This document shows positions 11,411 to 16,701 of a stretch of 64,000 nt of DNA, in pieces. Positions within the stretch are counted from its first letter, which is position 1. Every line of letters begins with the position of its first letter. The stretch is from Elusimicrobiota bacterium (GTDB taxonomy: Bacteria; Elusimicrobiota; Endomicrobiia; Endomicrobiales; Endomicrobiaceae), in contig JAISQF010000008.1 of the NCBI GenBank assembly GCA_031274365.1, positions 53,489 through 117,488 of the forward strand. The letters are read 5' to 3'. The notes under the pieces were generated by a model that worked only from the letters and a program-made list of their open reading frames with translations, searched no databases and had not been told where the DNA came from. The translations under genes were made by a program, and so were the position numbers.

Positions 11411-12448
11411 TTATTTATAAAAAAACAAATTAAAAGCCGCGTATATCAATAAAACTAAAATTATAAAACAGATTGCACCTTTATAAAACCTCATCTTATG
11501 TCTTATATAAGATCTAATTTCATCCCGCGCATTATTTGTATTTTCCCTCGCAATTTCCACAGAAATATCCATAATTATTTTTTCATAAGAATATGTCTTA
11601 CGGGCATAATGCCACCAAAAACTGCTCCAAAATAAATCTGTTCCGCGATACCAAGGCTTAAAATAGCCTGCGTAATGGATAATATATGGGTTCTCTTGCG
11701 CTTCTTTAATTTCATCTTGACCAAATATCAAAAATATCCTATTATGAAACCTCTTGTCTGATACAATAACTGGACAGAAATTATATTTAAGATTTAACGG
11801 ATAAATTTTATTAAAACATACCTTGTTTATGATATTTTGATCAAAACCTAAAAGCTTGTTGCGATCTTTGCGAGACTCCTCTAAGAAAATTGGAAAAATA
11901 TCCATCTCTCTCATCAGCTTCAGATTCATAATTAAAACACCGGCATTAATATACTGATCAAGTGAAGGAATACCATACTCTTTATAATGTTCATCAGGAA
12001 TCGTTTGCAAACAAATCCAAGGATCACGAACCCCTGCAACTAGATACCCTGCCCCATATTCTCCTGCCATTTTAAATCTCGTCTCATACATCTCTGATAA
12101 ATCACAATTAACTACTAAATCAACATCAAGACATATGCAAAAATCATATTTTTCAGGTAGTAATTCACATGCTTGTAATCTATAATATACTTCTTTGCCT
12201 AACGGTTTTGCCATGTATGAATGTTTGAAAGTATTTTCAGCATATATAAAATTAATTTTATGCCTATAATATTTTTCTATTTCTGAAACAATTATTCTTT
12301 TTGAATCCTCTAAAAAATCATTGCTGATAAGAAAATAAAAATCATAAATAGTATTTTCATTAGCATTTTCTAAAATAGAAACTACCGTCACGCTTGCATA
12401 CGCGGCGAAATACTCGTTTGACGTCATAACAACCGGAATTACATTCAT
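11411..12448 (-). CDS. Glycosyltransferase family 8
   Basis: FAAYASVTVVSILENANENTIYDFYFLI, FCICLDVDLVVNCDLSEMYE (DxD), YINAGVLIMNLKLMRE, YIIHYAGYFKPW. Confidence 0.88.
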   Translation of the reverse strand: MNVIPVVMTSNEYFAAYASVTVVSILENANENTIYDFYFLISNDFLEDSKRIIVSEIEKYYRHKINFIYAENTFKHSYMAKPLGKEVYYRLQACELLPEKYDFCICLDVDLVVNCDLSEMYETRFKMAGEYGAGYLVAGVRDPWICLQTIPDEHYKEYGIPSLDQYINAGVLIMNLKLMREMDIFPIFLEESRKDRNKLLGFDQNIINKVCFNKIYPLNLKYNFCPVIVSDKRFHNRIFLIFGQDEIKEAQENPYIIHYAGYFKPWYRGTDLFWSSFWWHYARKTYSYEKIIMDISVEIARENTNNARDEIRSYIRHKMRFYKGAICFIILVLLIYAAFNLFFYK

Positions 12449-12511: not shown

Positions 12512-13520
12512 TTATTTATAAAAAAACAAATTAAACACCGCGTATATCAATAAAATTAAAATTATAAAACATATTGTAATTTTATAAAATCTCATCTTAT
12601 GCCTTACATAAGATCTAATTTCATCCCGCGCATTATTTGTATTTTTCCTCGCAATTTCCACAGAAATATCCATAATTATTTTTTCATAAGAATATGTCTT
12701 GCGGGCATAACGCCACCAAAAACTGCTCCAAAAGAAATCTGCGCTGCGAAACCAAGGTTTACATTCGCCCACATAATGGATAATATATGGTTTTTCTTGC
12801 GCGGCATCAACTTCATCTCGGCTTAATTCTTTATAAAACTCTTCTTTTGGAATATGTAAATAAAAATTATACTTAAGATTTAATAGATAAATTTTATTAA
12901 AACATATTTTATTTATGATATCTTGATCAGCCAAAAGATGCTTTTTGCGAGACTCCTCAAGGAAAATTGGAAAAATATCCATCTCTCTCATAAGTTTTAA
13001 ATTCATAATTAAAACACCGCTATTGATATATTGATCAGATGAAGGAATGCCAAGCTTTTTACAATAATCAGGAATGCGAAGAATTGCAATACCTCGAACC
13101 CCTGCAACTAAATACCCCCCCCCCCCCCCCGTCTCCTGCCATTTTAAGTCTTGTCTCATACATCTCTGATAAATCGCAATTAACTATTAGATCACAGTCA
13201 AGATATATACAAAAATCATATTTTTCAGGCAGTAATTCGCATGCTTGCAATCTATAATATGCTACAAGACTAAGATAAGGCACATAATATGAAGAATTAA
13301 AGGTATCCCCGACAGATATAAAATTAATTTTATGTCTATGATATTTTTCTATTTCTAAAATAATTATTCTTTTTGAATCCTCTGAAAAATCATTACCGAT
13401 AAGAAAATAAAAATCATAAATAGTGTTTTCATTGGCATTTTCTAAAATAGAAACCATTGTCACGCTTGCATACACAGCAAAATCATTGTTTGACGACATA
13501 ACAATTGGAATGACATTCAT
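12512..13520 (-). pseudogene. Glycosyltransferase family 8 gene split by a frameshift at a C16 tract (probable phase-variable OFF allele)
   Basis: ORFs 13068..13520 and 12512..13159 are the N- and C-terminal parts of one GT8 closely similar to 11411..12448; frames differ by one base at the tract 13115..13130. Confidence 0.85.
13115..13130. repeat. Mononucleotide tract C16 (G16 on the coding strand)
   Basis: aataCCCCCCCCCCCCCCCCgtctcc read directly. Confidence 0.97.
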
Positions 13521-13532
13521 ACAACACCTCTC

Positions 13533-13988
13533 TTATTTTTTTACCGCGGGATTTCCAATCACAACAGCGCCGTCTTCAACGTCTTTTGTCACAACGCTGC
13601 CCGCTCCGATTAGTGCATTCTCGCCTATTGTAATTCCAGGAAGTATCGTCGCATTTCCTCCGACAGAAGCGCCTTTTTTAATCAATATTTTCTCCAACTT
13701 AAAATTTTTATTACCCGATTTAGGATACTTATCATTACAGAATGTAACGTTTGGACCTATAAAAACATCATCCTCTATTTCTATCCCGTCCCAAATTTGA
13801 ACTCCGCATTTTATCGTCACATTGTCCCCGACAATCACGTCGTTTTCTATAAATACATTTGCGCAAATATTGCAGTTTTTTCCTATTTTTGCGCCCGGCA
13901 AAATAATGCAAAACTGCCAGATCTTTGTCCCCTCGCCGATATTTTCGCTTTGAACGTCGGACAATTTATTTATCATTTTTTCTTGCAT
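13533..13988 (-). CDS. Left-handed beta-helix N-acetyltransferase (FdtC/QdtC-like, WbbJ family)
   Basis: Hexapeptide repeats [64 protein letters not shown]. Confidence 0.85.
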
Positions 13989-14371
13989 TTTAAGAATTCC
14001 TCATAATCTTTAATATATTCTTTTTCATTATAATATTGATTTGCCAAAACCATTATTACGCAGTCTTTAGAAAAATTAACAAACTCTCTCCATATATTTC
14101 CCTCTATATAAATCGCTTTCAGAGGAGAATCTAAAGTTATTTTTTCCTTTCTATCGCCGTCGTCTAAATAAAAATCGCAGCTGCCGCTGACGCAAATAAT
14201 ATATTGTTTAAGATTTTTATGACTGTGTTTTCCCCTCACAAAATCTTTTTTAGTCCCAAAAATATAATATACCCTTTTAATTTCAAAAGGAATATTTTTT
14301 TCCGCCTCTAAAGCGACAAGAGATCCGTTTTTATCTCCAAAACTTTTAAGTTCGACAATTTTATATTCCAT
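13973..14371 (-). CDS. Sugar 3,4-ketoisomerase, WxcM/FdtA/QdtA-like cupin
   Basis: Start at [72 protein letters not shown]. Confidence 0.85.
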
Positions 14372-15320
14372 TATTTTGTTTTTTTCTCCATAACAAAAAT
14401 TCTTCCACTCCTTCCTTAAAAGACGTCTTAGGTTCAAATTTAAGCAGAGTTTTTGCTTTCGAAATATCGCAGACAGTCCTTTCCACATCGCCTTTTTGCA
14501 TAGGAAGATTTTTTCTTAAAGCTTTTTTTCCGACGGCTTTTTCAATGACCGCTATCATTTCATTTAATGTTATCGGCGAGCCTCCGCCGAGATTTATTAT
14601 TTCATAAGAGCTTTTATCATAATCTATCGCCGCGCTTATTCCGTTTATAATATCGTCGATATAAGTATAATCTCTTTTAGAACTGCCGTCGCCAAAAACG
14701 GGAATTTCTTTGCCTTCTTCAATTAACTCCGCAAATTTTCTTATGGCCAAATCTGGTCTCTGACGCGGACCATAAACTGTAAAAAATCTCAAACATATTG
14801 ATTTTATCGCATATAAAAACGAATATGTGTATATCAATTGCTCGCAAGCGGATTTTGTCATCGCATAAGGAGAAATCGGCTCGCTTACTTTTAAGTCTTC
14901 CGAAAATTTATCGGCCTTGCAATTGCCGTATACTGAGGATGAAGATGCAAAAACAAGTTTTTTAATTTCTTTTTTTTTCATCTGCTCTAAAACATTTAGA
15001 GTTCCCGAAATATTTGTCTGCACAAAAATTTCTGAATTTTCTATAGAAGCCCTGACCCCCGCGTTTGCCGCTATATGAATCACAGCGTCAATTTTATTTT
15101 CGTCAAAAACTTTTTCCAATATTTGTTTATCGCAAATATCTCCGCGATACAAGCGGTATTTTGGATTTTGCAAATTATGCCTGACATTATTTTCTTTAAG
15201 CGCCGGATCATAATAATTATTAAAATTATCAAGGACAATTATTTCTTTGCCTTTTAACAATAAAGCGTCGGCAAGACTTGAACCTATAAAACCGGCGCCT
15301 CCTGTAATCAATATTTTCAT
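14361..15320 (-). CDS. NAD-dependent sugar epimerase/dehydratase (UDP-glucuronate/UDP-glucose 4-epimerase-like)
   Basis: ILITGGAGFIGSSLADALL, SSSSVYGNCK, SPYAMTKSACEQLIYTY. Confidence 0.9.
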   Translation of the reverse strand: MKILITGGAGFIGSSLADALLLKGKEIIVLDNFNNYYDPALKENNVRHNLQNPKYRLYRGDICDKQILEKVFDENKIDAVIHIAANAGVRASIENSEIFVQTNISGTLNVLEQMKKKEIKKLVFASSSSVYGNCKADKFSEDLKVSEPISPYAMTKSACEQLIYTYSFLYAIKSICLRFFTVYGPRQRPDLAIRKFAELIEEGKEIPVFGDGSSKRDYTYIDDIINGISAAIDYDKSSYEIINLGGGSPITLNEMIAVIEKAVGKKALRKNLPMQKGDVERTVCDISKAKTLLKFEPKTSFKEGVEEFLLWRKKQNNGI

Positions 15321-15393: not shown

Positions 15394-16701
15394 TTACAAA
15401 CTTTCTTCTAAAGCGTCTCTTGTCGCTTGTAAATAAGCGTATCCATATTTTCTATCGGGCTCTAAATGAGCGCCTTCGGCCCATTCATTCCAAGCGTTTA
15501 TAAAAACTATTTGCTCGTCTTTTTTATGATATTTTTTTGTCCATGACAAACAGTATTTAAGCCATTGTTTATAAAGCTCGGGCGTTAGTCCAAACAAAAC
15601 GCTTCCATTATTTGGAAAACGCGGAGTATTGTCCCAAGACGGAAAACAAGCCTTAAATAAATTATATACGTCGTTTTTATCATTTAAGTAAATTTCATTT
15701 TTCACATAACTTTCCATATCGTAAATTCTGCCGTCAAAATTCGGATTAACATATCCAAAAATTTTCTTATCCGGAACATTAAGCTCTTTATTTTTATTAC
15801 TTCTTAAATTGTGAGGAGGAAAATCCGCATAAGCGTCAAAACCCCACTCCGCAGTATCTTGAGAGTGAAACTCGCTTTCAAACATTTCGCTTGTTCTTGC
15901 ATAAATCAAATACAATTCTCCGACATTATTTTCTTCTGCTAATTTTCTCAAACTTTCAAAAAAAGTTTTTACCGTTTCTTTATCAAAAAGATGAGGTTTA
16001 TAAACGACTAATAAAATTTTTCCGTCTATTTTTATATATCTTGCGTCGCGCCAATAAGGCTCTATATCGTAAAAAAACTTCTCGACGTCGCCGGACTTAA
16101 ACTCCTGCCGCATTATCACTTCTTTATCTCCGGCATCCCATTTTCTCGTCCAATTTTCCAAAGCCCAGCAAAAACAAAAAGGGAAATCCAAACTTTTATT
16201 TTTAAGATAATTATTAAAAGGTTTGTCCAATAATTTTTCTCCCGAAAACCAATAATAATAAGCGCAAAATCCATATACGCCGTATAATTTAGCCAATTCA
16301 ATTTGTCTAAACATAATATCTTCATGAGACAAATCGTAAAAACCCACGTCTATGGGCAAACGCGGCTGATAATGATCCTTAAATAGAGGCGTAGCTTTTG
16401 TAACATTAAACCATTCCGTAAAACCCTGGCAATAATTACGGCTGTTTTGCTCTATCGGATAAAATTGAGGAAGATAAAAAGCTAAAAGTTTTATATCAAA
16501 AGATTTTGACGGCTGTGTTTTTGCTATGTCAACAAAACAATCTTTATTGTCTTTGTTTTCCAAATATTTAACAAATTCGCCGTAAAAAACGGCGTTCTCT
16601 TTATCTTTTATGAATTTTACAAACAATTTATTTCTAACTTTTTTTCTCAACTCTTTTTTAGGAATAAAAGCGCTTATTAAATTGATTAATAATTTTTTCA
16701 T
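15394..16701 (-). CDS. WbsX-like (GH99-like domain) glycan protein
   Basis: LLAFYLPQFYPIEQN..GFTEWFNVTKATPLFKDHYQPRLP..YGFCAYYYWFSGEKLL..FCWALENWTRKWD. Confidence 0.88.
   Translation of the reverse strand: MKKLLINLISAFIPKKELRKKVRNKLFVKFIKDKENAVFYGEFVKYLENKDNKDCFVDIAKTQPSKSFDIKLLAFYLPQFYPIEQNSRNYCQGFTEWFNVTKATPLFKDHYQPRLPIDVGFYDLSHEDIMFRQIELAKLYGVYGFCAYYYWFSGEKLLDKPFNNYLKNKSLDFPFCFCWALENWTRKWDAGDKEVIMRQEFKSGDVEKFFYDIEPYWRDARYIKIDGKILLVVYKPHLFDKETVKTFFESLRKLAEENNVGELYLIYARTSEMFESEFHSQDTAEWGFDAYADFPPHNLRSNKNKELNVPDKKIFGYVNPNFDGRIYDMESYVKNEIYLNDKNDVYNLFKACFPSWDNTPRFPNNGSVLFGLTPELYKQWLKYCLSWTKKYHKKDEQIVFINAWNEWAEGAHLEPDRKYGYAYLQATRDALEESL

Follow-up and report, generated by a model that had tools for sequence, protein, structure and literature searches.

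A probable contingency tract in the GT8 gene

The locus raises the question of whether a GT8 glycosyltransferase gene that is broken by a single homopolymer is a dead gene, a wrongly assembled gene or a gene that is switched on and off. The window, which is the whole 64-kb stretch of DNA analyzed here, belongs to an Endomicrobiaceae MAG of the Elusimicrobiota (G000; 1.04 Mb, 22 contigs, 59% complete), a bacterium related to symbionts of the termite gut. A C16 run of the + strand was found at 13115..13130 inside the GT8 gene, which is read from the minus strand, so that the coding strand carries G16. The run was the only C/G run of at least 7 nucleotides in the window, and one C6 run was the next longest and the sole other run of more than 5 nucleotides. 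The window contained 65% A+T, its longest A and T runs were 9 and 10 nucleotides, respectively, and a first-order model gave an expectation of 2e-6 C runs of at least 16 nucleotides per 64 kb. The original prediction had placed the run exactly here, at a break in the GT8 frame, and had given ORFs of 13068..13520 and 12512..13159 in different frames; both ORFs were recovered with these coordinates on the minus strand, and PF01501 matches were found on either side of the run. The N-half ORF (13068-13520, 150 aa) matched profile positions 1-124 (E 2.1e-14, 54 bits) and the C-half ORF (12512-13159, 215 aa) matched positions 154-251 (E 3.3e-17, 63 bits). The intact, tract-free tandem GT8 paralog at 11411..12448 (minus strand, 345 aa) matched positions 2-251 (E 3.3e-31, 109 bits), and all three scores exceeded the curated cut-off of 24.3 bits.

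The N-terminal half of the gene (13131..13520, minus strand) contained 130 whole codons upstream of the tract, and its ORF continued out of frame past the tract to 13068. The C-terminal half (12512..13114, minus strand) contained 201 whole codons downstream, including the stop, and ended in a hydrophobic C-terminal segment. Since whole codons flank the tract on both sides, the reading frame is set by the tract length modulo 3 alone, and the earlier codon arithmetic, by which C15, C12 or C18 gives a single frame, was right. The tract as assembled puts the halves out of frame. The proposal that C12 followed by gt would resemble the spacing of the paralog also agreed with the 12 nt between the tract-flanking residues of the latter. 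No stops were found in the two halves besides the frame break, and the tract was the single defect of an otherwise intact gene.

The GT8 gene was adjoined in the glycan cluster by four further minus-strand genes, encoding a hexapeptide acyltransferase (13533..13988, PF00132), an FdtA/WxcM-like sugar isomerase (13973..14374, PF05523, E 6.4e-52), a sugar-nucleotide epimerase/dehydratase (14361..15320, PF16363 and PF01370), and a WbsX-like glycosyltransferase (15394..16701, PF14307, E 9.2e-116). An Rfam search of the 64-kb window gave no match, and the tandem arrays found in the window were short and imperfect.

Constraint, conserved motifs, and position of the tract in the fold

The tract copy and the tandem paralog were 82% identical at the DNA level. 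The dN/dS against the paralog was 0.29 in the N half and 0.42 in the C half, and all indels between the two copies, in both halves, were of whole codons. By these measures both GT8 halves look constrained, and the gene does not appear visibly decayed. The invariant residues of the GT8 alignment were D108, D110, H258, K264, and P265. The tract copy contained DCD (DxD) in the N half and HYVGECKPW (HxGxxKPW) in the C half, and these motifs, together with the profile scores, place it in the GT8 family.

The paralog contained a seven-residue insertion at the tract site, which was absent from 11 of the 11 aligned GT8 proteins of relatives; the solved GT8 structure 3tzt also showed a gap at this site. 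In the AlphaFold model of the paralog (mean pLDDT 84), residues 128-136 formed a coil between the helix 123-127 and the strand 137-141. The tract site is thus modeled as a length-tolerant loop, where an in-frame run of glycines is plausible. The 150-residue out-of-frame product retains DxD but not the conserved DQ and HxGxxKPW motifs, and is therefore expected to be inactive. No orthologue of the tract was found in the relatives, whose nearest GT8 proteins were at most 39% identical, and a sequence scan of a genome-contig collection gave a distant Gastranaerophilales GT8 as the sole match.

Poly-C/G tracts of the genome

A genome-wide pattern search gave 19 matches to C/G runs of at least 12 nucleotides, of which 15 had real flanks, where about 0.015 were expected; pure poly-C at contig starts (C22 to C70) was set aside as likely read artefact, which reduced the 19 matches to 15 robust tracts. 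Several contigs began with C13 to C70, in some cases with junk GC sequence, and these resembled poly-G read artefacts (L014/L015, L057, L064, L073, L076, L169). The tracts ranged from G12 to G19. Eight of them were gene-internal, and by Pfam were located in the GT8 gene, a PMT-type membrane protein (just under the Pfam cut-off), a hexapeptide acyltransferase, three FkbM methyltransferases, an FAD amine oxidase-like gene with G14 near its C-terminus, and a PTS EII gene with the tract between EIIB and EIIC. The coding strand carried the G in all eight (sign test 0.008, or 0.03 for six independent families). Seven of the eight were out of frame, a share not significantly different from the chance expectation of two thirds (P 0.2). 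Two GT2 genes had tracts of 15 and 14 nucleotides at their 5' ends and no in-frame start codon of their own before the tract. Translation of these two genes could start in a leader that lies upstream in a different frame, as is usual for translational switches. A leader of ~300 bp was found repeatedly, next to several of the poly-C/G tracts that precede autotransporter-like, GT2, and larA-like genes (L057, L060, L061, L065, L070, L072), and it may be the source of the start codon for the two GT2 genes. Spread of the tract on a common mobile element was considered and rejected for the GT8 gene, as this leader adjoins several other tracts and not that of GT8. The remaining tracts were intergenic, and two of these were ~180 bp upstream of Chlam_PMP (polymorphic autotransporter-like) genes.

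The FkbM copies at the ends of contigs C11 and C21 were identical over 104 bp before and 53 bp after the tract, and contained G16 and G15, respectively. A different tract length within 157 bp of identical flank suggests that the tract changes more quickly than the sequence around it, with the caution that both copies stand at contig ends and belong to a repeated gene. The third FkbM copy contained G12, and a fourth FkbM paralog was tract-free. At L063:5252-5267 the arrangement TTGAAA-AC-G16-TATAAA was seen by eye, which is promoter-like with the G tract as the -35/-10 spacer. The promoter of meningococcal porA is a known case with a similar G-tract spacer. The dinucleotide TA came directly after the poly-G tract in 13 of the 19 cases in G000 and in 18 of the 38 in genome G006, whereas short G runs of 4-6 in the window were followed by it in 3 of 102 cases; this G(n)TA context was considered in G000, G006, G014, and G036, and homologous copies inflate the counts. 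Loss of mismatch repair was rejected as the cause of the tracts, because mutS was present in all 61 of the 61 genomes.

Other repeat arrays and the contig ends

All 44 contig ends were checked, and 24 of them coincided with simple repeats, which were of five different unit types. A poly-C/G run lay within 160 bp of the end in 14 cases, and 10 further ends consisted of (ACAG)n, (AACAC)n, (CACAG)n or (ACATCGCACA)n. The array units were tetra-, penta-, and decanucleotides, and none of these lengths is a multiple of three. (CAGA)29 was present at the end of contig C16 (L219:2852-2967) and at the start of contig C12 (L220:1-116). The ORFs adjoining it gave a Methylase_S match on each side and correspond to two HsdS halves, which makes the pair a candidate for one repeat-switched type I specificity gene spread over the two contig ends. 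The other arrays (L217-L226) were (ACAG)8 adjoining a methyltransferase (contig ends C18/C2), the 10-mer array (ACATCGCACA)11 adjoining an autotransporter-like gene (C5/C8), the contig-end array (AACAC)23 (C7/C20), and (CACAG)23 adjoining a type III Res-like gene (C19/C22), and the assembly breaks at these four sites. By Pfam, the gene classes that carry tracts fit surface and restriction-modification functions, with any enrichment judged by eye, and such classes are typically phase variable.

Explanations of the broken GT8 gene

We consider the GT8 gene to be a simple-sequence-repeat contingency locus subject to slipped-strand phase variation, with a probability of roughly four in five, and the tract very probably belongs to a large repertoire of random on/off switches, a set that has not been reported before in the Endomicrobiaceae. 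The poly-G tract would gain or lose bases by slipped-strand mispairing at replication, a change of length would move the downstream GT8 half in or out of frame, and cells would thereby differ in whether one particular sugar is added to a surface glycan. When in frame, the tract would encode a glycine run in the helix-to-strand loop of the GT8 fold; an out-of-frame allele would give a product that stops just past the tract and lacks half of the catalytic motifs. We infer a variable tract length in the population, reversible switching, and a surface location of the glycan. The original prediction of an OFF allele of a contingency locus is supported by the sequence, where "OFF" describes the assembled consensus only, and the assembled state is provisional, since tract lengths in an assembly are uncertain. 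The presence of mutS in the genome counts against the switch, as does the position of the tract in the middle of the gene and not near its start. Some classic cases of phase variation differ from this genome in their mutS status.

The uncertainty of the tract length gives some room, perhaps a minority chance, to the explanation that the assembler miscalled the tract, that the gene is really in frame, and that the "OFF allele" is an artefact, an explanation which partly overlaps with a switch. Long G/C runs are difficult to sequence, the pure C runs at contig starts resemble read artefacts, and an exact contig overlap of 77 bp suggests a short-read assembly. The GT8 tract, however, is flanked by unique sequence on both sides, and a wrong length would alter only the called ON/OFF state and leave the tract as a switch. 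It is unlikely that the gene is a recent, fixed pseudogene, formed when a duplicate of the neighboring GT8 was inactivated by a tract indel in a decay-prone lineage. Such an origin would agree with the adjoining intact paralog and with the many pseudogenes of the endosymbiotic members of the Endomicrobiaceae (PMC4505116). A very recent loss would also leave little damage: when neutral drift was simulated from the paralog, the frame remained stop-free in 30% of cases at 0.02 substitutions/site, and in 5% at 0.05 and 0.3% at 0.1. The constraint on both halves and the whole-codon indels argue against it, as do the seven further genes of this genome that carry a tract of the same type, one of them in frame; moreover, a C16 run would be a rare form for a random inactivation.

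Polymerase slippage can arise at long homopolymers, and slippage of the transcript or the ribosome at the G run might tune expression and yield the full-length protein at any DNA length, without genetic switching. Poly-G encodes glycine in all frames, so the products would be tolerated. We regard this explanation as very improbable, because the documented outcome at the G/C tracts of gonococcus and Campylobacter is DNA slippage (PMC5320596, PMC8355987), and the tetra- and pentanucleotide arrays that are also present in the genome are not usually explained in this way.

Tracts in the relatives

C/G runs of at least 12 nucleotides occurred in 19 of 37 genomes of the family, against 4 of 24 genomes of other Elusimicrobiota families. 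The tract-bearing genes of the relatives encoded two HsdS, two FkbM, radical SAM proteins, MBOAT, an epimerase, and an autotransporter, and both HsdS genes were split by poly-G tracts in one relative of the family. The FkbM tracts of the relatives were at positions different from those in this genome, and such differing positions in three genera suggest that FkbM tracts arose repeatedly and independently. Endomicrobium proavitum (G011) contained at least six CAGA arrays (L227-L232), which were intergenic where checked, and one G13 tract. Some of its CAGA arrays were near outer-membrane or autotransporter-like genes. One family genome (G023) carried a plasmid identical to NZ_AP017460 of Candidatus Endomicrobium trichonymphae. 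In a single-cell study of Endomicrobium, reads with G runs of at least 23 and low-entropy reads were removed before assembly (PMC8809381), a filter that could keep the longest tracts out of published genomes.

A probable phasome in gut symbionts and its comparison with known systems

With 15 robust C/G tracts and about five other repeat loci, the genome exceeds ten candidate phasome loci. It is probable, with less confidence than for the GT8 switch, that the Endomicrobiaceae, gut symbionts that are not known to cause disease, carry a multi-locus phasome similar in size to those of Neisseria and Campylobacter, in which mono-, tetra-, penta-, and decanucleotide repeats would switch glycan enzymes, restriction-modification specificity, and autotransporters, and in which the G12-G19 tracts are unusually long despite intact mutS and often stand in the G(n)TA context. 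According to a 2025 review, why many-locus phase-variable genomes seem confined to pathogens is a major open question, and database bias is suspected (PMC11868660). A repeat repertoire in symbionts of a phylum unstudied for phase variation makes this question directly testable, and the cultured relative Endomicrobium proavitum Rsa215 has already been long-read sequenced. If the phasome is real, it would suggest that phages, protist hosts or gut competitors, beyond mammalian immunity, select for switchable surfaces. The repeat tracts fragment the genomes of the group, may lower their apparent completeness, and may make switchable genes look like pseudogenes.

No paper that treats Endomicrobium and phase variation together was found in the literature, which is a weak result, as most subscription journals were outside the coverage. 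The nearest single-gene parallel is lgtC of Neisseria gonorrhoeae, where the poly-G tract ranges from G8 to G16 by strain (PMC5320596). Both genes are GT8 (the present one also by a phmmer match to LgtC structures), both contain a gene-internal poly-G of similar length, and the frame would decide expression here as it does in lgtC, whereas the lineages are unrelated and the present tract interrupts its gene midway, in a lineage-specific loop, and is known from the sequence of one assembly. The closest repertoire is the poly-G phasome of Campylobacter (LOS, capsule, and flagellar glycan), which resembles the present one in its many G tracts, both intergenic and intragenic and mostly in glycan and surface genes, and in its small A+T-rich genome (PMC8355987). 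The Campylobacter tracts are mainly G9-G10, whereas here G12-G19 tracts were found together with tetra-, penta-, and decanucleotide arrays. The (CAGA)29 array between the Methylase_S ORFs, and the poly-G in the HsdS of a relative, resemble phase-variable type I HsdS systems, with the difference that the single gene is here inferred across two contig ends. The G14 of the FAD oxidoreductase, near the 3' end and affecting the last ~30 residues, resembles the C-terminal phase variation of Helicobacter canadensis and gonococcus (PMC5320596), although it is one case, seen with a single tract length. C-terminal switching and repeats in HsdS are thus already known types. Slipped-strand phase variation at G/C tracts is itself the standard mechanism, and what is new here is the host lineage and the repertoire.
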